Assembly (NCBI GenBank): GCA_019313095.1 | Contig: JAFDBU010000009.1 | Span: 1 to 11,340 of the forward strand | DNA length: 11,340 nt | DNA from: Deltaproteobacteria bacterium | GTDB taxonomy: Bacteria > Desulfobacterota > Desulfobulbia > Desulfobulbales > BM004 | Direction: 5' to 3' | Part shown: piece after piece, positions 1,573-11,340 of the stretch | Numbering within the stretch: the stretch's first letter is position 1 | Layout of the letters: every line of letters begins with the position of its first letter | The notes under the pieces: generated by a model | What the model saw: the letters and a program-made list of their open reading frames with translations, nothing else | Databases searched by the model: none | Told to the model about the DNA's origin: nothing | Translations under genes and position numbers: made by a program

Positions 1573-2532
1573 ATGGAACACTATACAAGATGGGATGATT
1601 TCCTCGTGTCTGAGCACGAGATGATAGAGCGGGCAATGGCTGTCCTGAAAGCCAACCTGGAAAAGATTGATACAGCGGTCAAGACCCCCTTGCAGATGCA
1701 GCGGGCCATAGATTTCCTGCTGGAATTCGGCGACAAGATACATAATACCAAGGAGGAGAAATTCCTGTTTCCGCTCATGGGCCGGAAGGGGCTTCCGGTG
1801 GAAGGCGGTCCCATAGGTGTTATGCTCATGGAACATGATATGGAACGCAAACTCCTCCAGAAGATGACCGCTGACCTGCCAAGCCTGGCTGAAGCAACAA
1901 CAACCGCCAGGCAAAAATTTGCCGCCGAAGGATTTGAGTATCTTAAAATAAGGGCTGAGCATATTTGGAAGGAAAACGATGTGCTCTACGCCATGGGGCG
2001 CAAGGTCATCAATGAGGAAGAAAACCAGGATCTGTTAAACGAGTTTAAAGGGCTGGATAAGCTTACATACGGGGACAAAGCGAGAGAACATTATGAACAG
2101 ATGCTGAACGAAGTTGAAAAAGACAGTGAGGCCAAAAAACGGCTCATCCGGAATCTTTCCTATGAACAGTTGGACGCCATCCTGGAAACGCTGCCGTTTG
2201 AGGTGACGTTTGTGGATGCTGAAGATACCGTGGCCTATTTTAACAAGCTGGACAAAACCAAGCTCTTTCCGCGGACCCGTTCCGTTATCGGCCGCAAGGT
2301 GGAAAAATGTCACCCGGAAAAAAGTGTCGCCATGGTAAACCAGATTGTCAGCGGTTTCAAGGACCGGACCATGGATCACGCGGAGTTCTGGATTGATTTC
2401 AGGGGAGACAAAATACTTATCCGCTACTACCCGGTGTTCAGCGAAAATGATACGTATATGGGGGTCCTGGAGGTAACGCAGGCAATCGGCGCCATTCAGA
2501 AAATTGAGGGAGAAAAAAGGTTAATCTACTAA
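1573..2532 (+). CDS. hemerythrin-like (HHE) domain protein with C-terminal PAS domain
   Basis: A 319-residue cytoplasmic protein with no signal peptide or membrane segment. Residues about 8-140 form a hemerythrin four-helix bundle with the di-iron ligand set in order: H15 (SEHE), H57 and E61 (HNTKEE), H88 (MEHD), H130 and E134 (EHIWKE). A linker (about 150-195) leads to a PAS domain (about 200-310) of the kind found at the end of DUF438 proteins, with the conserved CHPEKSV segment (about residues 248-254). It lacks the N-terminal DUF438 part of those longer relatives. Hemerythrin domains bind O2 or NO at a di-iron site, and PAS domains sense or dimerise, so a sensor or scavenger of O2/NO is likely. 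No output domain (kinase, HTH or cyclase) follows. The start is supported by GGAGG at 1562-1566. The FNR/HcpR-like dyad upstream fits control by low oxygen or nitrosative stress. Confidence 0.9.
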   Translation: MEHYTRWDDFLVSEHEMIERAMAVLKANLEKIDTAVKTPLQMQRAIDFLLEFGDKIHNTKEEKFLFPLMGRKGLPVEGGPIGVMLMEHDMERKLLQKMTADLPSLAEATTTARQKFAAEGFEYLKIRAEHIWKENDVLYAMGRKVINEEENQDLLNEFKGLDKLTYGDKAREHYEQMLNEVEKDSEAKKRLIRNLSYEQLDAILETLPFEVTFVDAEDTVAYFNKLDKTKLFPRTRSVIGRKVEKCHPEKSVAMVNQIVSGFKDRTMDHAEFWIDFRGDKILIRYYPVFSENDTYMGVLEVTQAIGAIQKIEGEKRLIY

Positions 2533-2750
2533 TCACGAATAGAGTTGATCTAATAAAAAGAGGGGCGGATAAACCTTTCATTTTTTTATAGATGGCGGCG
2601 GTGAGCAGGACAATTACTCAACCAGCTTGAATAACTCTGTTTTTCCCTGCATGGTGAGTATGGAATCAGTGCTGACCTGCAGGAAGGATTATAGGAAGCG
2701 AGGTAATGAAGGGTTATTGCATATTTGTTTTGGAACCTGGCTGATGTTTC

Positions 2751-4085
2751 TTATTGCATTGTGAGCAGATAGGTCCGCAGGTTTATCTTTTTGTTCTGCA
2801 GCCCCAGTTTTTTTCGCAGGTTGTTCCTATGAAATTCCACGGCATTAACTGAGATACTTAGAATATTGGCCGCGTCCTTGTTCGATCTGCCCTGGCGCAC
2901 AAGATCTGCTACCTGAATTTCCCGTGGGCTCAAGTTCAGGTAACTTGAGGAGAGATTGACAGAAAATGAAGAGGTGATTTTCTTGATGTTCTCCTGAATA
3001 ACCCTGACATATTCCAACTGCCGTGTATGTGCCAGGTTTTCCTCCAGCAGATCAAGATAGGGGTTCACCAGCCTGGTAAAATTATCCAGAACTCTGGTTT
3101 CCATCTCTGTTTTATTTTCATTGATTTGCTTCAGAAGGACGCGCAGAGCAGTATTTGTGTTTTTTAGTTCTTCGGCATGCAGCTCGGCCTTCACCTGGGC
3201 CTTGTTCCTTTCGGTAATATCCAGATTGGTACCGATAATTCCCCCGATCTTCCCGTCATTATTAAAAAAGATAGACTTAAATATAATCAGGTCATGTTCC
3301 GTGCCGTCGGGATAGCCGCAAGACACCTCATATGAGATGGTCAGACTTGTCTTTAGGAGGCGCTGATCCTGCTGTTCATGGATACTGGCCAGTTTCGCTC
3401 CGGTTATTTCAGGCTCTGTTTTACCGATAATTTGTTCTTTGCTGGAACCTAGAGATTCTGCAAATGATCTGTTGCAGCCGAGGTAGCGTAAATTGTTATC
3501 CTTAAAATAAACTGGTACCGGAATTGAATCGATAAGGTTCTGCTGGAACCGGACTTGGTTTATGAGGGCTTGGGTTCTCTCGACCACCTTTTTTTCAAGA
3601 CTGCTGCGGTGTGCCCGCAGCTCTCTCTCATTTGCCTTCATTTCGAGACAACGCCTTGCCAGGCAACGAACCTCAATAAGGCTTAAAGGCTTGCGCAGAA
3701 AAAAGTTTACTCCGAGTTCAAAACTTCTTTCCACTTCCTTATCATCGCCATGCCCGGTGATCACCACAACATGATATGGATCTTCGGGCTTTATGTTTAA
3801 CTTTTCAAGAAAACCAAAGCCATCGAGACCCGGCATGCGCAGATCAAGGAATATCAGGTCCGGCTTTTCCTTCTCAATGTGGGTAAGACCTTCTAGTCCG
3901 TTGCCGGCAAAGGCAATTTTACAATTTTCATCTTTCAATATTTTGAACATTGCCTTTTGCAGGGCAGGTTCATCATCAATAACGAGAATTTGGGGAGCAG
4001 TTTTAGAAGCCGGCACATGTGCCTCCACGTGTTGGGGTTTGTTGTCAGAAAAACCGTGAAGAGTTCCAAGTGTTTCGTGCACCAT
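2751..4085 (-). CDS. response regulator: REC-PAS-LuxR-type HTH
   Basis: A 444-residue cytoplasmic regulator. The receiver domain (about 31-150) has the acidic pair D37/D38, phosphoacceptor D81 (FLDLRMPG), T110 and K132 (LRKP). A coiled linker (150-180, with a KKVVERTQAL segment) leads to a PAS domain (about 183-295, ending in NLDITERN). A second helical stretch (295-370) resembles the dimerisation helices that precede HTH domains in PAS-LuxR proteins. The C-terminal LuxR/NarL HTH (384-429) begins LSPREIQVADLV and contains the recognition helix region SVNAVEFHRNNLRKKLGL. All receiver residues are intact, so phospho-control is expected, but no kinase gene adjoins it. The PAS domain may provide a second ligand or redox input. 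The start ATG at 4085 has only a weak ribosome site (GAAG). It is convergent with the hemerythrin gene. Target genes are unknown; a palindrome 48-62 bp upstream may be an autoregulatory site. Confidence 0.9.
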   Translation of the reverse strand: MVHETLGTLHGFSDNKPQHVEAHVPASKTAPQILVIDDEPALQKAMFKILKDENCKIAFAGNGLEGLTHIEKEKPDLIFLDLRMPGLDGFGFLEKLNIKPEDPYHVVVITGHGDDKEVERSFELGVNFFLRKPLSLIEVRCLARRCLEMKANERELRAHRSSLEKKVVERTQALINQVRFQQNLIDSIPVPVYFKDNNLRYLGCNRSFAESLGSSKEQIIGKTEPEITGAKLASIHEQQDQRLLKTSLTISYEVSCGYPDGTEHDLIIFKSIFFNNDGKIGGIIGTNLDITERNKAQVKAELHAEELKNTNTALRVLLKQINENKTEMETRVLDNFTRLVNPYLDLLEENLAHTRQLEYVRVIQENIKKITSSFSVNLSSSYLNLSPREIQVADLVRQGRSNKDAANILSISVNAVEFHRNNLRKKLGLQNKKINLRTYLLTMQ

Positions 4086-4323: not shown

Positions 4324-4401
4324 ATGGTACCCCGTCAGCCTGGGAATGCTGATGGTGAAGGGGACACACTGGGCAGAGATTTTTCATTGTCAGTTTTTTA
4401 A
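4324..4401 (+). CDS. doubtful 25-residue ORF behind a strong ribosome site
   Basis: GAGGAGGG (4313-4320) stands three bases before an ATG that opens a 25-codon frame ending at TAA (4399-4401). It overlaps the 3' end of the convergent ABC ATPase gene by four bases. A TATAAT (4169-4174) lies upstream on the same strand, with the nested hairpin between, but has no -35 partner. The peptide is hydrophilic at first and ends FSLSVF; I recognise no family. It may be chance. It is listed because the purine-rich ribosome site is the strongest in the 312-bp gap. Confidence 0.2.
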   Translation: MVPRQPGNADGEGDTLGRDFSLSVF

Positions 4402-5099
4402 TTCGCATAACAGGAACCATCCTTGACATGAATAGTTCTTGATGTGTGTTTGCATGCCTCCGGGTTGTGGGTGACCATGATGATGGTCTGGCCTTCCCTG
4501 TTCAGTTCTTTCAGCAGTTTCATGATTTCATCGGCGGTTTTGCTGTCCAGGTTGCCGGTAGGTTCATCCGCCAGGAGAATGGGCGGCCTGTTTACAATGG
4601 CCCGGGCAATGGCAACCCGTTCCTGTTCGCCGCCTGAAAGCTGGTCCGGCAGCCGTTCTGCTTTGTTTGTCAGGCCGACCCGGGCCAGGACATCGCGGGC
4701 CATTTTGTCCTGTTCTTTTGCTTTTTTGCCTGTGATAGCAAGGGGCAGCTTAACATTTTCCAGCACCGTGAGGTAAGGGATCAACTGGAACGACTGGAAG
4801 ATAACCCCGATGTATTCGCTGCGCAGGTCAGCGCGTTGCTCACTCGTCAGCTTATAGATATCTAGGGAGTCAAGCAGGATCCTGCCGCGGGTCGGGTGGT
4901 TGAGCCCGCCGAGAACCGAAAGCAGGGTTGATTTTCCTGAGCCGGACTGTCCCATGATGGAAACGAATTCTCCATCATCGATATAAAGATCCATTTGCCT
5001 GATCGCCTGCACGTTTGTCTCGCCGTCCTGGTAATCCTTACCGATACCCTGGACCTCAATGAGGTGCTGTACATTAGGTTCAACTGCTGAGTTATGCAT
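4398..5099 (-). CDS. ABC transporter ATP-binding protein (MacB/LolD type)
   Basis: This cytoplasmic ATPase powers the permease encoded just upstream in the operon. Numbered from the longer frame that starts at 5114, it has Walker [10 protein letters not shown] (55-63), Q-loop Q107 (IFQSFQLIP), signature LSGGE (159-163), Walker B ILLADE (179-184) with catalytic E184, the D-loop GNLD, and H-loop H216 (VTHN). The Q-loop context and the [10 protein letters not shown] motif are typical of the LolD/MacB/FtsE group. The signature helix reads [12 protein letters not shown] rather than the common GGQQQRVAIARA, a mild variant. The start at 5099 (residue 6 of the longer frame) is preferred because AAGGA (5107-5111) sits seven bases before it, while the ATG at 5114 has no ribosome site. 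It is the last gene of the operon, 42 bp after the permease stop. Confidence 0.93.
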
Positions 5100-5141
5100 T
5101 GTGTTATCCTTCATGATAAGTTCTACAATTAATTTAATTTT

Positions 5142-6299
5142 TTACAGGGCCCGAAGCGCTTCACTCGGGTCGAGCTTGCTTGCTTTCTGGGCTGGATAAA
5201 GGCTTGCAATGAGGCTTAAGGCTATAGCCAGTAAAAGCGAGATGCCTCCAAGATTATAGTTAAAGCCTGCAAAGGAAGCGCTTTTTACAACCAGCGGCAG
5301 GGCAGCCCAGGCTATCCCGCTGCCGCCCAGATAACCAAGGAGGCCGCCAACTAAACCAACCACCATGGCCTCTAACAGTATGATCTGCATGACATGGCCA
5401 CGTCGGAAACCAATGGCGCGGAAGATGCCGATCTCGCGGGTCCTTTCATTTACCGATCCCATCATGGTCACGAAAACCAGAAGTGAGCCGATGAAGATAA
5501 CCAGTACGGCAATGCCATAGCTGAATGTTTTGAACATTTCAACAGTCTGCATTTTTGACATCATTGCCTGCCGGAGACCAGTAACCTTTGCTTCCGGGAA
5601 TTTTTCGCCGATCTGCAGAACCAGCTCAGTGATCGGGCAGTCCCTGCAGAAGGCCTGGATCTCAACCATAGATACCTTGCCTTCCTTGTCCAGAATTTTC
5701 TGAAAAGCATGCAGGTCTCCAATGATAATGCCGTCTTCGGATGATCCTGTCGGTTTTAAGATGGAAGTGACTATGAAATCACGCCCGTCAATACCAAGGG
5801 TGTCACCGACTGCCAGATTAAAAGTTGTTGCAGTCTGGGAACCGAGCAAAAGTTCGTTTGTTTCAGTAGGAGGGGCTCCCTCAAACTGCCACCAGTTTTT
5901 GAGCTGCAGCTCGGTTTCAAAATCAACACCCATGAGCAGTACATCTTTATCCCTTACGGTAGTAGCCCCGAGAACTTTAGGAGCTACCAGGCCAAGATTC
6001 TTTGCGTATTCTATAGTCCTAATCTCAGGGATTCTTTCCTCGGCAAATTCCACGGTCTGGTAGTTGACACCGCCCATGGTGATGCCGCCGTAGGAAAGGG
6101 CCAGGTTTTCGCTTCTGGGAACCATGACAATATTTGCCCCATACTGGTCAAGCCTGTCTTCAATATCATGGGTCATTGATTCCGTGATCGACATAAGGGC
6201 GACAATCGTGGCAATACCGATAAAAAGACCCAGGACCAGAAAGATCATTTTGCCTTTACGGCGTTTGAGATTATTGAATGATATATTATGCAGTTTCAC
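5142..6299 (-). CDS. ABC transporter permease, MacB/FtsX type
   Basis: A 385-residue inner-membrane protein with the MacB topology: one N-terminal membrane helix (about 19-40), a periplasmic domain (about 41-258), and three more helices (about 262-282, 303-333 and 352-372). The cytoplasmic coupling segment NERTREIGIFRAIGFRRGHV (284-303) and the C-terminal YPAQKASKLDPSEALRAL are classic FtsX-superfamily features. Such proteins usually act as dimers with a LolD-like ATPase and drive periplasmic events or release rather than simple channel transport. The periplasmic domain carries a CRDC pair (C218, C221), unusual for this family and fitting a metal/thiol role. The start is GTG at 6299, with GAGGG eight to nine bases upstream, inside the last codons of the preceding gene, which ends five bases before. 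That spacing implies tight translational coupling. Substrate unknown; the neighbours suggest metal or thiol handling. Confidence 0.9.
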   Translation of the reverse strand: MKLHNISFNNLKRRKGKMIFLVLGLFIGIATIVALMSITESMTHDIEDRLDQYGANIVMVPRSENLALSYGGITMGGVNYQTVEFAEERIPEIRTIEYAKNLGLVAPKVLGATTVRDKDVLLMGVDFETELQLKNWWQFEGAPPTETNELLLGSQTATTFNLAVGDTLGIDGRDFIVTSILKPTGSSEDGIIIGDLHAFQKILDKEGKVSMVEIQAFCRDCPITELVLQIGEKFPEAKVTGLRQAMMSKMQTVEMFKTFSYGIAVLVIFIGSLLVFVTMMGSVNERTREIGIFRAIGFRRGHVMQIILLEAMVVGLVGGLLGYLGGSGIAWAALPLVVKSASFAGFNYNLGGISLLLAIALSLIASLYPAQKASKLDPSEALRAL

Positions 6300-6304
6300 G
6301 GCGG

Positions 6305-6739
6305 TTATCCCTCAAATTTTGCTTCTTGTTTGATGGTATGCAGGCGCTGTGTATGACCTACCTGATTTAGCAGGATAGCTTTTAAGTCATTCGCCTTGAA
6401 AAATGTATTCAATTCATTTGTTCCGGTTATGGACTTGTCAAAGGTAACCACGATTCTCGAACTGCCTGTATCTGTTTCAATACCCTTGACACCCGCCAGC
6501 TGTTCAATACCGGTGATGACTTCCTGGGGCCATACTTCGGTATTCTGAAGTTTGTAAATGGCGTCATCAAGGTGCCTGGTATTGAAGTAGGCAATTGATT
6601 TGGGTACAATAACAAATCCCAGTCCCAGGATAATTACCATCGATATCATGGCAGCCAGGGTGCCGAAACTGATGCCGCGTTTTTTTACCCCGAGAACTTT
6701 CTCTCTTTTTTCTTTGTATTTTTCCAGATCGTATGCCAT
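6305..6739 (-). CDS. membrane-anchored protein with Cys-less HMA-like domain
   Basis: No firm family recognition. The 144-residue protein starts with a charged cytoplasmic segment (1-21) rich in K and E, one membrane helix (about 24-46), then about 95 residues outside. The outer part, from residue 70, reads like an HMA/ferredoxin-like beta-alpha-beta fold: VITGIEQLAGVKGIETD (74-90), IVVTFDKS (96-103), then NELNTFFKANDLKAILL (108-124). This matches the 'IExLxGVxxV...VxVxyD...ELxxai...Gy' rhythm of HMA domains, but WPQEV stands where MTCxxC should be, so no metal-binding cysteines exist. It may be a docking partner of the exported HMA protein or of the permease. The start at 6739 is chosen because GAGGAAA (6746-6752) lies six bases upstream; the frame stays open to an ATG at 6772 that lacks a ribosome site. 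It sits 48 bp after the lipoprotein gene and 5 bp before the permease gene. Confidence 0.75.
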   Translation of the reverse strand: MAYDLEKYKEKREKVLGVKKRGISFGTLAAMISMVIILGLGFVIVPKSIAYFNTRHLDDAIYKLQNTEVWPQEVITGIEQLAGVKGIETDTGSSRIVVTFDKSITGTNELNTFFKANDLKAILLNQVGHTQRLHTIKQEAKFEG

Positions 6740-6787
6740 TTCAAATTTCCTCATCTTATAAATATCTGTCATTGAGATTTTTGGTTA

Positions 6788-7285
6788 TTATGACTGGCGA
6801 TACTTCATGTACCAGCTGTTCATGTCTACATCACGCATATTGATAACCAGTTTGTCGCCAACAACTGTCCTGTTCAATGGAGCCGGATTGCAGCCGCCCT
6901 TGATGACATTGATCTTGTTGGAGGCAAATTTCTGGCCGCAATTCTTGCAGACCATTTTGTCGCCTTCCTGGTAATATCCTAGTCCGGAACGGTAGCAGAC
7001 GTCACAGGAGTCAATGGCGGCGCGCAGGATACCATCAGCACTCTTCAAAACAAAAAAGGTGACCATGGTGCCGTCGGTTGACTTGACCTGAAAATGGTGA
7101 GCCTCGCCGTCTGAGATATCGGCAATAGGAATCTCGAGTTTGCCGTTGTTCGGTGTAATCAGTCCGCCGCTTTTAGTTCCTGAAGCAGAGCTTGAGGCGG
7201 AGCCGGAGCAGCCGTAAAGTGCAAATCCCGTTATCAGTAAAATAAGAAGTGTGATGAGTGACCTGTGTTTGTTTGGATGAAACAT
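6788..7285 (-). CDS. DUF2318-family lipoprotein, cysteine-rich
   Basis: A 165-residue envelope protein. The N-terminus is basic, then hydrophobic (10-24), and ends in a lipobox LYGC with C26 as the lipidated residue. A Ser/Gly-rich tether (27-41) follows. The C-terminal domain (about 48-162) is DUF2318: IDSCDVCYRSGLGYYQEGD, then MVCKNCGQKF, then INVIKGGCNP. This gives C94, C97, C113, C116 and C132, likely ligands of a metal centre or redox thiols. H63/H64 are further candidates. DUF2318 proteins occur in iron-handling loci such as those with P19/FetP and an FtsX-type permease plus ATPase, as I recall for Campylobacter and uropathogenic E. coli. The start is well supported by GGAGG nine bases upstream (CCTCC at 7295-7299 on the plus strand). 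It is the second gene of the operon, 74 bp after the tandem HMA gene. Confidence 0.9.
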   Translation of the reverse strand: MFHPNKHRSLITLLILLITGFALYGCSGSASSSASGTKSGGLITPNNGKLEIPIADISDGEAHHFQVKSTDGTMVTFFVLKSADGILRAAIDSCDVCYRSGLGYYQEGDKMVCKNCGQKFASNKINVIKGGCNPAPLNRTVVGDKLVINMRDVDMNSWYMKYRQS

Positions 7286-7359
7286 GATAGAAGACCTCCG
7301 ATTGTTATTGTGTTCTTTGCGGGTTAATTAGGCTATTAGGTTAAATATTGATTCACTAT

Positions 7360-8172
7360 TTATTTCGAGTCTGTCTGGCTGAAATAGCGCCTGTATAATT
7401 TCTGCCAGGATGCTGCTGTGGCGTTGCAGGGCCCATTGCTGTTGCAGCCGGAGCCTGAACGCACAGCCTTTCCCTGGGAACCTGAGCTGCGGGTTGTTGT
7501 AAAAGCTTTTTGGACTGGGATTTCATTGGTTGCCAAAACTCTTGCCGGATAACCGAGGTCGGTTATTATTGTAGCAATTCTGCTGCTTTGCAGACTGTCT
7601 GCATGGTCAACAATGACAACCCCTCTGCTCAAGTAACCGTTCATGCCATAAGTATCTGCGAGTTTACCCAGTTCAGCGGCAATGTTGGCCAGACAGGAAG
7701 TACAGGAAAGTTTACTGACCTGCAGGGTTGTACGGCTGATAGTACCGGTTGCAGGGGCAGCTTTCCAGGCAGTCGGGCCGGCTCCACCGGAAACGCCACA
7801 GCCGCCGCTTGAGCAGCCGGAACGGTACCTGCTCTGCTGGGCAAATTTATTTGTATATTGCTCCGGCAGTGTTGCCGTCCATTCCATTGTGGCAGGATAG
7901 CCTAGTCTGCTTATAGTGGCAGCGATCTGTTCAGAATTTAGCGTGGAAAGATGATCAACGGTCACCCTACCGGCACGAATATCAGCATCCATGCCGAGAG
8001 CTCCCGGCACGCCCTTTAATTCAGCCTCAATAGTTGCCAGACAGGAAGTGCAGGAGAGATTGTTCACAATAAAGTTTGAACGATGTACTGTTGCCGAGTT
8101 TGCCTGAAGGGCCCAAATAAAGGGCAGCAGAAGCGTGCTCAAGACTGCGATAAATTTTTTGTTTTGATTCAT
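7360..8172 (-). CDS. exported tandem heavy-metal-associated (HMA) domain protein
   Basis: The 270-residue protein starts MNQNKKF with a signal peptide ending near LQANSA (22-27). It then carries two HMA-like units: NNLSCTSCLATIEAEL (37-52) to RLGYPA (89-94), and SKLSCTSCLANIAAEL (153-168) to DLGYPA (205-210). Each holds a CTSC metal site (C41/C44 and C157/C160) and a VDH (H74, H190) in the strand where HMA domains usually have VxYD. Each unit is followed by a Gly/Ser linker with a second Cys pair (C120/C125 and C243/C249) and a Trp (W136, W256). A periplasmic metal-binding (Cu, Hg, Zn or Fe) or thiol-exchange protein is expected. ATG 8172 is chosen over the one at 8250: it opens the signal peptide, has AAGGA just upstream, and the longer start overlaps the sigma-54 promoter. 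It is the first gene of the operon. Confidence 0.85.
   Translation of the reverse strand: MNQNKKFIAVLSTLLLPFIWALQANSATVHRSNFIVNNLSCTSCLATIEAELKGVPGALGMDADIRAGRVTVDHLSTLNSEQIAATISRLGYPATMEWTATLPEQYTNKFAQQSRYRSGCSSGGCGVSGGAGPTAWKAAPATGTISRTTLQVSKLSCTSCLANIAAELGKLADTYGMNGYLSRGVVIVDHADSLQSSRIATIITDLGYPARVLATNEIPVQKAFTTTRSSGSQGKAVRSGSGCNSNGPCNATAASWQKLYRRYFSQTDSK
7405..8076 (-). repeat. in-frame duplication inside the tandem HMA gene
   Basis: Two copies of an HMA plus Cys-linker module, at about 8076-7765 and 7728-7405 on the minus strand, are offset by 348 bases (116 codons). The best-kept stretch is the CTSC region, where 14 bases (GCCAGACAGGAAGT at 7688-7701 and 8036-8049, plus-strand reading) are identical. 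The copies differ at many other codons, so the duplication is old, yet the CTSC, VDH, LGYPA, linker Cys pair and Trp are all kept in both. Confidence 0.8.
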
Positions 8173-8233
8173 TTGTCCTTCTCTGTAGTTGGTTAAATTT
8201 TTTGGAGCCGTACCCGAAACCCATTTCTCATAA

Positions 8234-8249
8234 AGCAAAGGGTGTGCCA
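8234..8249 (-). promoter_or_regulatory. sigma-54 (-24/-12) promoter of the HMA-DUF2318-ABC operon
   Basis: Read on the minus strand the sequence is TGGCAC-ACCCT-TTGCT, an exact match to the sigma-54 consensus TGGCAC-N5-TTGCW, with ten bases between the invariant GG and GC. The expected start of transcription is near 8223, giving a 5' leader of about 51 bases to the ATG at 8172. Sigma-54 promoters need an AAA+ activator bound upstream; an NtrC-type regulator with an intact GAFTGA is encoded directly upstream on the same strand. A 14-bp AT-rich palindrome ATTATT-tg-AATAAT (8291-8304, about -75) lies where a bending protein such as IHF often binds. Confidence 0.88.
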
Positions 8250-8352
8250 CATTGTGGTTCTTGATGAAATTCTGATCGCATCATTCTGGAATTATTTGAA
8301 TAATATAAGAAGGGCTATATTGGGCAGGCTGGGAATATCAAAAAAAATGAAG

Positions 8353-8390
8353 AATATTGTTTAATCGAGAAGACAGAATTAAACAATATT
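8353..8390. terminator. 13-bp inverted repeat flanked by T-runs; bidirectional terminator or enhancer site
   Basis: AATATTGTTTAAT (8353-8365) and ATTAAACAATATT (8378-8390) are perfect complements around a 12-base loop. On the plus strand the stem is followed after ACTGA by seven T; on the minus strand it is followed after CTTCA by eight T. It lies between the regulator gene stop (8596) and the operon promoter, so on the minus strand it could end the two-component transcript. The stem is very AT-rich (only two G-C pairs). Its centre is also about 148 bp upstream of the predicted sigma-54 start, a normal distance for an activator enhancer, so binding by the regulator is a real alternative. Confidence 0.55.
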
Positions 8391-8595: not shown

Positions 8596-9948
8596 TTACC
8601 CGTCTTGATCTATATTGAATTTTTCAAGACGGTAGATCAGGACATGGCGGGGTATTTTCAAGAGGCGGGCTGCCTGCGAACGGTTGCCGCGACTTTTTTC
8701 TAAGGCTTTTAAAATGAGCCCCTTTTCGATATCCTCCAGGGAGACGCCGTCAGGAGGGATGTCAGGGATTTCAAGGATATCAGGCGCTTTTGCAGTTGGC
8801 AGATTGATGTCCGCCGGCTCGATGATGTTGCCTTTCCGTAAAATAAGACTCCGTTCAACGGTATTCTGCAGTTCTCGTATATTCCCCGGCCAGTCGTACT
8901 TTTTCATGATTGACATGGCTTGGTCGGAAAATTTAACGCCGCGTGGGGCGCCTAGTTTTTTTAAAAAGTGATTTCCCAACGCCGTTATGTCTTCACGACG
9001 TTCCCTCAGCGGCGGAATATGTAAGGGGATGACGCTGAGACGGTAGTAGAGGTCCTCGCGGAAACGACCCTTTGTCACCTCTTCATGCAGATCCTTGTTG
9101 GTGGCGGCAATGATCCGGACATCAACTTTTTCAGTACGGTCTGAGCCCACTGGCTCGACTTCCCGTTCCTGGATAACTCGTAAAAGCTTGGCCTGCATAT
9201 CAGTTTTCAGCTCGCCGATCTCATCGAGAAACAGGGTGCCCTGGGTTGCCGCCTGAAAACGTCCCTTGCGGTTTGCAACTGCACCGGTAAAGGCACCCTT
9301 GACATGACCGAACAGTTCGCTTTCAATGAGATTGTCAGGTATGGCAGTGCAGTTTACCGCCACCATTGGCCCTTTTTGGCGCGGGCTGTGCTGGTGCACC
9401 AGCCTGGCCAATACTTCTTTCCCTGTTCCCGATTCTCCGGTAATAAGGACTGTTGCCTCACTGGAGGCCACCTTAAGAGCTGTTTCAAGTAGTTCGGCCA
9501 TGGCGGAATTTGCTGTTTCCATACCGGATGTGCCGGTCAGCCTGTTTACCTCTTCGGCGAGCTGCTCCTTTTGGGAGCGCAATGATGTAAGTTCAAGAGC
9601 TTTACTGCACGAAAGCCGCAAGGTTTCACGCTCAAATGGCTTGGTAAGGAAAGTGAAGGCTCCTTCGTGCATTGCTTTTACAGCCATTTCTATGGACCCG
9701 AAAGCTGTTATGACAATAACCGGTGTTTCCGGGGATTCTCTTTTTATGGCAGCGAGAACTTCCAGGCCGTCCATATCACCCAATTTAACATCGGTAATCA
9801 CCAGGTCTGGATCGTTCTTTTTGAAAAGCTTTATACCTTCCCGGCCTGAAGCGGAAGGTATTACATCAAATCCCGCTTCCGACAGGTTGTATTCGGTAAC
9901 CCGCCGTAAACTTTCATCATCATCAATGAGAAGAATGGTGTCTGCCAT
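8596..9948 (-). CDS. NtrC-family sigma-54-dependent response regulator
   Basis: A 450-residue cytoplasmic transcription activator with three domains. Receiver (about 3-118): D10/D11, phosphoacceptor D53 (VITDVKLGD), T81 and K103 (LTKPF). AAA+ domain (about 140-375): Walker A GESGTGKE (171-178), the sigma-54 contact loop GAFTGA (218-223), Walker [10 protein letters not shown] (238-246), and the arginine-finger region with FREDLYYRL (296-304). Fis-type HTH (about 405-445): [20 protein letters not shown] then [20 protein letters not shown]. Every key residue is present, so it should activate sigma-54 promoters when phosphorylated. The start is supported by AAGGA six bases before the ATG. The kinase gene ends 19 bp upstream, so the two are cotranscribed. 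The likely target is the sigma-54 promoter at 8234-8249, about 350 bp downstream of this gene; that link is inference from position. Confidence 0.95.
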
Positions 9949-9967: not shown

Positions 9968-11086
9968 TTAACTTAAGCTTCTACCTGAACCAGGCTTGGG
10001 TAAAAAGATTGTAAAACATGCTCCCCCGGTTTCTGAATCAGAAATAGTAAGGTTGCCGCCGTAACTTTCAACTATTTTTTTGCTGATTGAAAGGCCGAGT
10101 CCGGTTCCTCCTTCCTTCGTCGAGTAAAACGGGTCAAAAATTTTTTGCTTAAGTTCATCAGGGATTCCCGGTCCGTTATCTTTTATAGCAACAGTACAGC
10201 CAGCCTCAGTCTTTTCGGTTTCAATGATGATTTTACCTCTCGGGGGTAATGCATCAATAGCATTTAAAATAATGTTCAGAAACACCTGGGATAATTTTTC
10301 CTGGTCAACCTGACATTCCTTGCCGACTTCCCAGCCCAGCATTGAAAGAGATATGCTTTTTTTTCGCAACTGGCTGTTAAGAAGACTGGCAACCCGTTCG
10401 ATAACCTGTGATAAAGGTTCATGTACAACTTCTTCCTTCTTCCTGCCGGGTTGTCCCTGCCGTGAAAACTGTAAAACCTCCTCAACCGTATTGTTAAGAC
10501 GGGTGGTTTCCTTAAGGAGGATCTCAACAAATTCTCTTTTGGGATGCCCGACGGGAAAATCGTCAAGCAGAATCTCTGCCGTACCCTTGATTGACGAGAG
10601 CGGATTTTTGATTTCATGGGCCAGGGAGGCTGATAGCTGGCCTAGGGCAGAAAATTTTTGCGCTGCGCTTAATTGTTCTTCAACTTCCAGCAAAAGCTGG
10701 GTTTCCCGGTGCAGTTTATCATATGATCTTTCCAGTTTTTCTGACAACTCTTTGTAGCGCCGGCGCAGCAGGGATTCCCGGCCGGCAATAAAGCCGGTCA
10801 CTGTTCCGGCTGCAAGGTAAAGGATGATTTCCGTCAGCTCGCTTAAATAGGTTCCTGTTTCCTGCCCGATGTAGAGAAGAACATGTGGAATAAAGGCGAT
10901 TGATGACATGACGGCAAGCGCCAACCCGCCCCAGACGCCGAACCATATTGCCCCCAGGACAATGGGGAAATAACTGAGACGCCTGAACATATCATGATAA
11001 AATATCATGTATCCAGGCGTAAAATAGTGCAGCAGTCCTATACCGATTATAACGAGCACCAGAACGGCAAAAAGAATTTTCCTCAT
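9968..11086 (-). CDS. sensor histidine kinase with four-TM N-terminus
   Basis: Numbered from the longer frame (TTG at 11101, 377 residues), four membrane helices lie at about 7-27, 44-58, 60-78 and 88-107, joined by very short loops, so there is almost no periplasmic sensor domain. A coiled linker (108-148) leads to the HisKA domain with H162 (LAHEIKNPLSS). The HATPase domain has N276/N280 (NIILNAIDA), DNGPGIP (308-314) and GGTGLGLSIS (331-340). The short-loop layout suggests sensing within the membrane or through another membrane protein, perhaps the permease or the anchored HMA-like protein. H25, H36 and H73 in the membrane part are possible metal ligands. The ATG at 11086 is taken as start; TTG at 11101 is equally possible, as neither has a clear ribosome site. 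It pairs with the downstream NtrC-type regulator. The 11102-11340 stretch upstream shows no gene and no clear promoter. Confidence 0.93.
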   Translation of the reverse strand: MRKILFAVLVLVIIGIGLLHYFTPGYMIFYHDMFRRLSYFPIVLGAIWFGVWGGLALAVMSSIAFIPHVLLYIGQETGTYLSELTEIILYLAAGTVTGFIAGRESLLRRRYKELSEKLERSYDKLHRETQLLLEVEEQLSAAQKFSALGQLSASLAHEIKNPLSSIKGTAEILLDDFPVGHPKREFVEILLKETTRLNNTVEEVLQFSRQGQPGRKKEEVVHEPLSQVIERVASLLNSQLRKKSISLSMLGWEVGKECQVDQEKLSQVFLNIILNAIDALPPRGKIIIETEKTEAGCTVAIKDNGPGIPDELKQKIFDPFYSTKEGGTGLGLSISKKIVESYGGNLTISDSETGGACFTIFLPKPGSGRSLS

Positions 11087-11340
11087 AGGTTCGTCAGCCA
11101 AAAGTTTACATATGCCTGTAGATGAAAGAACGTCCGCAGTAACGATAACTGTAACTATAATGTTTCTAACAGAATGAAACCATTACTATTTTGAGTCCAG
11201 CCGGAAAGCCTCTTTATCTGGTTGGAAACTAAGCTAATCGAGGTAAACACCTTTTGCAATCCGTGAAACAGTTTGAATTCTATCCCCAGAGATTTACAAG
11301 GAATAGAGTTATAGCAGGAAAATAAGTGATGATTATAAGG

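Follow-up and report, generated by a model that had tools for sequence, protein, structure and literature searches.

The closest described relatives of the locus analysed here are the FetMP-FetABCDEF systems of Campylobacter jejuni and an E. coli plasmid, in which genes for a DUF2318 protein (CxxC...CxxC...C), an FtsX-like permease and an ABC ATPase adjoin, as in our locus. In Campylobacter, the loss of fetA, fetB, fetC or fetD each impairs growth, and passages of PMC10783030 describe their biochemical role as not known. Another point of comparison is the MacB/LolCDE group of ABC systems, with which the module shares a MacB_PCD and FtsX permease and a LolD-like ATPase. Among regulators of metal defence, ZraSR is a sigma-54 two-component system for envelope metal stress, and the ZraP/Spy-like family is tied to zinc in E. 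coli. To our knowledge, envelope copper handling in Desulfobacterota is poorly known, and no known Cus system includes an ABC machine together with an HMA carrier. In gut Firmicutes, the predicted CsoR copper meta-regulon includes DUF2318 and HMA-DsbD_2-DUF2318 proteins, according to passages of PMC4938975. Among the titles, abstracts and selected passages of the literature surveyed, we found no description of the five-gene system presented below.

The window, i.e. the whole stretch of 11,340 nucleotides analysed, carries all five genes on the minus strand at 4398..8249, where the original prediction had placed them. Its features are as follows.

4398..5114, minus strand: ABC ATPase, LolD/MacB-type (ABC_tran 121.9 bits, cut-off 25)
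5142..6299, minus strand: permease, MacB/LolC-type (FtsX 75.9 bits, cut-off 25.5; MacB_PCD 60.6 bits, cut-off 27)
5634..5648, minus strand: CRDCP motif of the permease, residues 218-222, with its only two cysteines
6305..6739, minus strand: Cys-less, membrane-anchored protein with a predicted HMA fold (model, profile match to ATP7B, PDB matches)
6788..7285, minus strand: DUF2318 (PF10080) protein (Pfam 105.6 bits, cut-off 26.3)
7360..8172, minus strand: exported carrier-like protein of 270 aa with two HMA domains (Pfam HMA 42.6 bits, cut-off 24.8)
7378..7446, minus strand: C-terminal tail of the carrier, C-x5-C-NATAASWQKLYRRYF, also kept where relatives have a single HMA domain or none
8234..8249, minus strand: sigma-54 (-24/-12) promoter TGGCACACCCTTTGCT, 61 bp 5' of the ATG of the HMA gene
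8348..8363, no strand assigned: putative activator dyad TGAAGAATATTGTTTA, differing from TGWAGAATATTCTWCA at two positions, 98 bp upstream of the -24 element
8596..9948, minus strand: NtrC-type sigma-54-dependent response regulator (Response_reg, Sigma54_activat, HTH_8)
9968..11101, minus strand: membrane-bound histidine kinase (HisKA, HATPase_c)

A total of 85 DUF2318 places were located, and 60 stretches from among them were retrieved. The gene order of the module is kept across Desulfobacterota, with the permease and the ATPase each present in 40 of 40 loci whose downstream sequence reaches far enough, the DUF2318 gene in 36 of 38 and the HMA gene in 31 of 38; these loci are related and partly represent the same species in two collections, so the counts are not independent events. 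Because it is present in 31 of the 38 loci, the HMA gene is not a random neighbour, and its proposed union with the DUF2318, permease and ATPase genes in one unit is supported. Beyond the operon, the two-component system and a LuxR-PAS regulator, no family occurs in more than seven of the 46 loci compared. The LuxR-PAS regulator recurs as a neighbour in the nearest relatives.

The first protein of the module begins with a signal-like segment, and a profile of the family's own domains found both HMA copies in the window protein (123.8 and 122.2 bits), in agreement with its description as an exported two-HMA protein. Both domains bear a CxxC motif (residues 41/44 and 157/160), and each is followed by a further cysteine pair (120/125 and 243/249). 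The start of the gene was corrected from GTG 8250 to ATG 8172, because most aligned homologues begin there and the sigma-54 promoter fills 8234-8249. The 155-aa membrane-anchored protein has no Pfam match and no cysteine, and hence no CxxC metal site of the HMA fold. Its model (mean pLDDT 83.5) has one membrane helix followed by a beta-alpha-beta-beta-alpha-beta succession, HMA-bearing chains make up 49 among the 50 PDB matches listed (E 1e-3 to 1e-2), and its profile matches ATP7B with E 3.3e-5. It is thus predicted to adopt the HMA fold, which fits the earlier view of a membrane-anchored HMA-like protein without cysteines. The longer open reading frame of this gene starts at 6772, and most homologues start at 6739.

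The ABC pair was rightly assigned to the MacB type, as the FtsX, MacB_PCD and ABC_tran domains all score over their Pfam cut-offs. The CRDC announced for the permease is part of its CRDCP motif, and CxxCP occurs in 100 of 100 permease relatives, whereas CxxC occurs in none of 11 FetB/FetC permeases, a contrast newly found here. The PDB relatives of the permease are 5xu1, MacB, LolE and LolC. Among the NCBIfam models, the permease scores best with LolC/E, under the cut-off, and the ATPase with LolD (236.8 bits, under the cut-off of 307.75). Unlike the MacB/LolCDE systems, the module scores under all listed NCBIfam equivalog cut-offs, possesses the CxxCP motif and metal-binding partners, and has no MacA-type adaptor in its operon. 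By analogy with its family, the pair would perform an ATP-driven periplasmic motion.

The DUF2318 protein of the window has the pattern C94-x2-C97-x15-C113-x2-C116 plus C132, and the CxxC...CxxC motif occurs in all 60 DUF2318 proteins compared, the fifth cysteine also being invariant. Its fold is predicted from the model to be Rieske-like, with cysteines where histidine ligands would stand, and a PDB profile search found no relative by sequence. The Rieske ligand motif is CxH...CxxH. The spacing of the DUF2318 cysteine pairs resembles it, but four cysteines replace the two cysteines and two histidines, and a fifth invariant cysteine is added. The window protein, earlier described as a five-cysteine DUF2318 lipoprotein, retains its domain and its lipobox, whereas its cysteines are six in all, one of them that of the lipobox. 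A lipobox was found in four of 32 aligned relatives (the window and its nearest relatives L004, L007 and L009), so lipidation is not general.

These data bear on the idea of a dedicated Lol-like release system, in which the ABC pair would pull the (metal-loaded) DUF2318 lipoprotein out of the inner membrane, so that it could be transferred to the outer membrane or leave the cell. The best NCBIfam scores and the PDB relatives named above, as well as the four lipoboxes, agree with such a role, which we nevertheless consider improbable and only a weak rival because 28 of the 32 relatives have no lipobox. Moreover, two genomes (G086 and G132) encode DUF2318 on a different contig from the operon, and the DUF2318 domain of the Fet branch belongs to a membrane protein with multiple spans, according to passages of PMC10783030. 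In two other genomes, G083 and G139 (both about 90% complete), the operon with the Cys-less HMA gene is present and a DUF2318 match occurs nowhere in the genome, so DUF2318 may be dispensable to the module.

The original prediction had likened the locus to the accessory half of the FetMP/p19 systems, lacking the Ftr1-like permease, P19 and thioredoxin-like genes, in whose place a double-HMA protein had come. The absence of these genes from the locus stands; the replacement is too strong a statement, because the exported first protein has two, one or no HMA domains across relatives. FTR1 (PF03239) is absent from all 24 genomes searched, including the window's own (64% complete), and there is no P19/FetP beside DUF2318 among the marker matches in the window or in L004-L049. 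The module further differs from FetMP-FetABCDEF in that its DUF2318 protein is free and not an 8-TM FetA, the HMA carrier and the Cys-less HMA protein are extra, a single permease gene of the CxxCP family stands against the two FtsX-like permeases FetB and FetC, and the operon is under sigma-54 control in a copper-type regulon. An iron-uptake accessory unit like Campylobacter FetABCD, working without FetMP or with another permease, would share the DUF2318 domain, the FtsX-type permease and the ATPase with our module, and the FetA-like protein of the E. coli plasmid is 32.6% identical over 56% of the query. However, with no FTR1, a CxxCP motif confined to this branch, one permease instead of two, CusB in none of five Fet-type loci, and co-regulation seen with Cus-type efflux (iron genes as a class lay outside the survey), this explanation is very hard to credit. 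The functional kinship with the FetMP accessory half was therefore dropped on account of FTR1, the CxxCP family and the Cus-type co-regulation, whereas the broader assignment to an envelope metal or thiol system is supported.

The two-component system adjoins the operon upstream, and in 24 of 31 loci with at least 4 kb of upstream DNA a regulator relative of more than 480 bits is encoded no further than 10 kb away, as expected of the dedicated system that had been proposed. The NtrC-type regulator is presumed to be the activator of the regulon. E. coli CusR is an OmpR-type regulator, and here an NtrC-type activator stands in that position. Among 55 kinases of 300-700 aa, 38 including that of the window match its N-terminal membrane sensor region and 17 do not; His25, His36, His73 and Glu91 (numbered from the TTG start of the open reading frame) are invariant in these 38. 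Sigma-54 sites scoring at least 12.5 were found in 29 of 42 loci, where shuffles predict 2.15, which corroborates the suggested sigma-54 control of the operon. Similar to the ZraSR-ZraP system of enterobacteria, a ZraP-like (Metal_resist) gene has this promoter as well in two genomes belonging to the genus of the window, although the window kinase (184.2 of 479 bits) and regulator (404.7 of 760 bits) stay far under the ZraSR equivalog cut-offs, and the regulon and the binding site differ.

The module operon is preceded by the dyad TGWAGAATATTCTWCA, placed some 100 bp upstream of the -24 element. With up to two mismatches, it occurs in 33 of the 35 module promoters whose sigma-54 score close to the first gene is at least 12.5 (weaker, siteless or upstream-cut loci being left out), and in 13 of 14 Cus-type promoters, themselves picked because a sigma-54 candidate lies close to the first gene; shuffles gave none in either set. 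Overall, 13 of 18 CusCBA-type efflux operons from the same genomes are preceded by the dyad and a sigma-54 site, and none by the mirrored motif. In these 18 RND stretches, 13 have a sigma-54 site before the first gene, three (L196, L200 and L207) have no upstream DNA, L201 has upstream DNA and no site, and for L209 the promoter on the Cus side is found in L121, with a sigma-54 site and the dyad 167 bp before it. The label CusA here denotes a 1056-aa open reading frame of L033, named by eye, and matches to it.

The dyad was discovered in these sets and afterwards checked against shuffles and a mirrored motif, and with matrices for which only module sites served as training data; L019 and L023, which seem to be the species that carry two of the Cus operons, were excluded from the training. 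A matrix from 20 module sites placed 14 of 14 Cus promoters over the threshold (column-shuffled mean 0.075, maximum 2), and one from 14 Desulfobacula-like sites placed 13 of 14. In the four locus sets there are 63 paired dyad and sigma-54 promoters, against none for the mirrored motif and two in all for four other control motifs, one of which is not a palindrome. The module thus shares the dyad with Cus-type operons, with a DUF2318 gene lying away from its operon and with the Metal_resist gene, and we infer that the regulator binds it. The separate DUF2318 gene is that of G086 (one mismatch and a sigma-54 site), the only convincing in-trans case; in G084 the dyad has three mismatches beside a good sigma-54 site. 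The candidate of G132 (three mismatches, sigma-54 score 12.0) was rejected, being no better than three chance pairs in its stretch. The window's own genome has eight dyad sites within two mismatches, of which only those of the window and C31 are accompanied by a sigma-54 site scoring at least 12.5.

The sequences show the parts of the module, their conserved order, the promoters, the shared dyad and, in relatives, linkage to Cus-type, CueP and CopA genes. For example, L033 has the module followed by a sigma-54 site with the dyad, CueP (115.6 bits, cut-off 27), CusC, CusB and RND genes, and in L121 the dyads lie between divergent HMA-DUF2318 and Cus-type genes. Plasmid pPRO1 combines a CsoR-type regulator, CopA (TIGR01511, 622 bits, cut-off 397), HMA, DUF2318, permease and ATPase genes, together with a kinase, a regulator, TolC, an RND adaptor and a CusA/CzcA-type gene. 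Of 44 DUF2318-permease-ATPase stretches, 16 have a CusB match of more than 100 bits, where genome density would predict 0.17; in the other 28 of these modules from across the phylum the stretch contains no CusB, and contig ends cut many of the stretches. Dyad and sigma-54 promoters or gene neighbourhood are therefore common to the module and the CusCFBA/CueP/CopA copper defence in relatives.

It should be noted that the copper link in the window's own genus is indirect. The window has no CusB or CusC marker match, so the RND pump, adaptor and channel are not in the locus, and the genus yielded no dyad-bearing Cus operon. No CusB match at E 1e-20 occurs in G073 (93% complete), G131 or G142, and G000 has a weak generic RND match with no site, cut by a contig end. 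The only other regulon member seen in the genus, where part of the G073 and G142 dyads was followed, is Metal_resist (ZraP/Spy-like), in G000 and G131. CueP is absent from all 24 module genomes and is ruled out as a general regulon member. Copper is not cleanly separated from silver, zinc or cadmium, because two CusB relatives tested score under the NCBIfam cut-offs for both CusB and CzcB.

On balance, we favour, with some reserve, the view that the module is an arm of a sigma-54 copper (soft-metal) envelope-stress regulon operating by the following mechanism, in which copper would be the signal. The kinase would sense envelope metal stress and phosphorylate the NtrC-type regulator, which would bind the dyad and open the sigma-54 promoters of the module and, elsewhere in the genome, those of CusCBA-type RND efflux or ZraP-like genes. 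The exported protein with its HMA domains and cysteine pairs would gather Cu(I) in the periplasm, and the Cys-less HMA domain, anchored beside the permease, may be the docking site for this carrier. The DUF2318 protein (Rieske-like, with four cysteines at the ligand loops) and the permease CxxCP would provide receiving or redox sites. The ABC pair would not pump metal through the inner membrane but spend ATP on changing its periplasmic shape, thereby releasing the metal, or thiols holding it, to be handed on for efflux.

Alternatively, the module could be a thiol or electron machine of the same copper regulon, its cysteine pairs being redox couples rather than metal carriers and DUF2318 holding an Fe-S or Fe centre on its Rieske-like fold, while the ABC pair powers an electron or dithiol-disulfide step by which thiols that are oxidised or blocked by metal are repaired, or by which the redox state of copper is set. 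We regard this as possible but rather unlikely, given that CxxC-bearing HMA domains are metal-transfer folds, that a single TlpA-type query found no match in the 46 loci L004-L049, and that we know of no precedent for MacB-type ATP-driven electron transfer. The ATP-driven relay across the envelope that the original prediction had put forward is one of two candidate mechanisms.

The gene set recurs in many sulfate reducers and their relatives within Desulfobacterota. In it, the DUF2318-FtsX-ATPase core occurs without an iron permease and is tied by a shared operator to Cus-type efflux; this core now has defining cysteine motifs and a predicted DUF2318 fold, and the module makes both a regulon (one dyad) and a metal amenable to testing, with a set of parts that is minimal. 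Returning to the copper-release mechanism, we tentatively suppose that the module might be a further kind of defence against copper, additional to P-type ATPases, RND pumps, oxidases and metallothioneins. In this view, a MacB-type machine acting by mechanotransmission would spend ATP on the periplasmic stripping of Cu(I) from an HMA carrier docked on a Cys-less HMA subunit, the all-cysteine, Rieske-fold DUF2318 protein would be the acceptor or a redox partner, and control would lie with a sigma-54 copper regulon distributed across Desulfobacterota. If true, the same chemistry would explain the role of the DUF2318-ABC genes in FetMP iron uptake. Our analysis suggests that this so far unnamed module represents a new way for anaerobic bacteria to handle toxic copper.

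The window is a single contig (C9), taken from an incomplete genome of 1.55 Mb with a completeness of 64%, and its nearest named relatives at this locus belong to the Desulfobulbaceae and other Desulfobacterota. In order of transcription, the minus strand carries a two-component system, a sigma-54 promoter and the five module genes:

11101-9968, minus strand: membrane histidine kinase
9948-8596, minus strand: NtrC-type regulator
8172-7360, minus strand: exported double-HMA protein, between the sigma-54 promoter and the DUF2318 gene
7285-6788, minus strand: DUF2318 protein
6739-6305, minus strand: membrane-anchored protein without Cys
6299-5142, minus strand: MacB-type permease
5114-4398, minus strand: ABC ATPase

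An upstream start at 8250 had been proposed for the HMA gene; this start was abandoned, since it overlaps the promoter and the homologues mostly begin at the position corresponding to 8172. The ATPase gene is immediately followed by that of a PAS-containing response regulator with a LuxR-type output (2751-4085, minus strand), with an orthologue downstream of the ATPase in the nearest relatives as well (loci L004-L008). Three genes in series on the plus strand (178-2532) encode a 'Gate'-domain membrane protein, a small ferredoxin and a hemerythrin-PAS protein. Counterparts of all three are present in L007, of the hemerythrin protein in L006 and of the Gate protein in L023.

Searching with aligned sequences of the Cys-less HMA protein, we collected 46 loci from a one-genome-per-species collection; within the class, this protein is present in 23 of 144 genomes. 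Upstream DNA of 1.4 kb or more is available for 38 loci; of these, 31 have the HMA gene, 32 the HMA gene or a protein sharing its tail, and 36 the DUF2318 gene. Among loci with enough DNA, the permease is next in 40/40 and the ATPase in 40/40. Of the 22 double-HMA profile matches of at least 41 bits in the class sample, 19 adjoin a Cys-less HMA or DUF2318 gene, the remaining three being located at a contig edge (two in genome G084) or on another contig (one in G137). The HMA gene thus does not stand here by chance, in line with the original prediction. Neither the HMA gene nor the tail was found in L023, L033, L042, L045, L046 and L047. Genomes G086 and G132 have an operon with two single-HMA genes and encode DUF2318 on another contig; in G083 and G139 the operon is present and no DUF2318 match was found in either genome. 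In L045 (1149-1568), a regulator assigned by eye as Rrf2/IscR-like, carrying a cluster of Cys, precedes DUF2318 and replaces the two-component system. The separate DUF2318 genes of L111 and L112 have an ArsR-like regulator and a YraQ-like permease, both labelled by eye, in their vicinity, and that of L111 also adjoins a Metal_resist gene.

The double-HMA protein (270 aa) contains eight Cys in four pairs, one CxxC per HMA domain and a second pair behind each domain, and ends in the tail C-x5-C-NATxASWxxLYxRxF. In the loci compared, the HMA domain varies more than the tail, which persists in a looser form in single-HMA relatives and even in short exported proteins without HMA (L019, L060, L061, L067, L068). 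In Desulfobacula-like loci, the single-HMA protein has a different Cys-rich stretch at its end. The first module gene of L141 (8291-9232) fuses an HMA domain to a SurA-like foldase domain, as perhaps also in L142, L147 and L161 (the Pfam check covered L141 only). HMA-free DUF2318-permease-ATPase modules often begin with a Cys-rich protein of ~130-170 aa with a recurring hydrophobic, PLYLxxxSFLI-like C-terminus (L114, L116, L118-L120, L123, L138, L139 and others), possibly a copper-responsive leader.

The predicted model of the Cys-less protein has a membrane helix (25-54) followed by a beta-alpha-beta-beta-alpha-beta arrangement. HMA-bearing chains account for 49 of the 50 Foldseek matches listed, the best being ATP7B, MerP and Menkes, with E about 1e-3 and TM-scores by target of 0.78-0.80. 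The profile of the Cys-less protein also matches ATP7B (E 3.3e-5), and the protein as modelled has the HMA fold. The only two Cys of the permease form a CRDCP motif between its MacB_PCD and FtsX domains. CxxCP occurs in 100/100 permeases from the module and related DUF2318 loci, some species counted twice, and CxxC in 0/11 FetB/FetC permeases.

In 29 of 42 loci, versus 2.15 expected, a -24/-12 element scoring at least 12.5 stands upstream of the first gene. A shared dyad, TGWAGAATATTCTWCA, lies mostly 85-130 bp further upstream and is found within two mismatches in 33/35 module promoters; the window's copy (8348-8363) has two mismatches. CusCBA-type RND operons were fetched from module genomes, on contigs other than that of the module; a sigma-54 site immediately precedes the first gene in 13 of the 18. 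Together with the promoter in cis in L033, this gives 14 Cus promoters, of which 13 carry the dyad with up to two mismatches and all 14 with up to three, 50-96 bp before -24. A matrix built from 20 module sites places all 14 above threshold (column-shuffled matrices: mean 0.075, maximum 2), and one from 14 Desulfobacula-like sites only recovers 13. Four locus sets contain 30, 6, 15 and 12 paired dyad and sigma-54 promoters, versus none in any set for the mirrored motif and 0, 0, 2 and 0 for four other control motifs. The 15 phylum-wide pairs precede HMA genes (4), DUF2318 (5), CusC (2) and Met/His-rich exported proteins (2), two having no assignable gene behind them. The separate DUF2318 gene of G086 has its own dyad (one mismatch) and sigma-54 site, and G084, whose two HMA genes lie at the edge of a contig, has a three-mismatch dyad and a good sigma-54 site before its DUF2318 gene; the candidate pair in G132 does not stand out from chance pairs in its vicinity. 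In G108, HMA-DUF2318 genes diverge from Cus-type genes with dyads in between, and ~10 kb away there is a gene for a close relative (702 bits) of the regulator.

In L033 (Smithellaceae), a sigma-54 site with dyad lies behind the module and precedes genes for CueP, one Met/His-rich and one YtkA-like protein, an outer-membrane efflux protein, an adaptor of the CusB type and an RND-like protein of 1056 aa. On plasmid pPRO1 of Pelobacter propionicus, HMA-DUF2318-permease-ATPase genes are flanked by CsoR/CopA and by kinase, regulator and RND genes. Sixty DUF2318 neighbourhoods fetched phylum-wide include 44 DUF2318-permease-ATPase modules, 16 of which have CusB above 100 bits in a stretch of up to 16 kb versus 0.17 expected (base: 57 matches above 100 bits in 198.9 Mb). 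In DUF2318-module loci, 38 kinases share the homologous membrane sensor of the window's kinase; CusB is present in the stretches of six (L033, L130, L137, L151, L166, L184), and no match was found in 17 other kinases compared. The sensor's three His and one Glu, invariant in 38/38, could be a metal site, although general conservation of a sensor family would look alike. On this evidence, copper is the best supported metal. Against it count that no dyad-controlled Cus operon was found in the window's own genus, where the second regulon member is a Metal_resist protein (G000:C31, G131:C80), that CueP is absent from 24/24 module genomes, and that two tested CusB relatives reach neither the CusB nor the CzcB cut-off. 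In L116, a CueO-like multicopper oxidase (2308-3780; 409 bits, under the cut-off of 525) lies directly upstream of the gene for a Cys-rich protein, which in turn precedes a DUF2318-permease-ATPase module. In six related genomes (L192-L197), the contig stops within 0.5 kb upstream of the YtkA-Cus operon, as would happen next to a repeated element.

No description of this regulon was found in titles, abstracts and passages of the literature. The module shares DUF2318, FtsX permeases and an ATPase with the Fet systems of C. jejuni and E. coli, which additionally own FTR1, P19, two permeases and thioredoxins. Membership of the Fet system was rejected, since FTR1 occurs in 0/24 module genomes and other parts differ, the E. 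coli Fet permeases being without CxxC.

In MacB/LolCDE-type pairs, ATP moves periplasmic domains and no substrate needs to pass the membrane. The HMA protein would carry Cu(I), the membrane-anchored Cys-less HMA protein would be its likely dock, and the DUF2318 protein, all-Cys and predicted to be Rieske-like, may be a partner beside the permease CxxCP. These parts are most simply read as a machine for releasing or handing over Cu(I) at the expense of ATP; the hand-over step alone we hold tentatively, at somewhat short of an even chance. The main rival, a thiol or electron step instead, draws support from the Rieske-like fold and the redox model proposed for C. jejuni FetABCDEF in passages of PMC10783030; we consider it rather unlikely. 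The copper-regulon explanation as a whole appears reasonably probable, and the module may use chemistry related to that of Fet.
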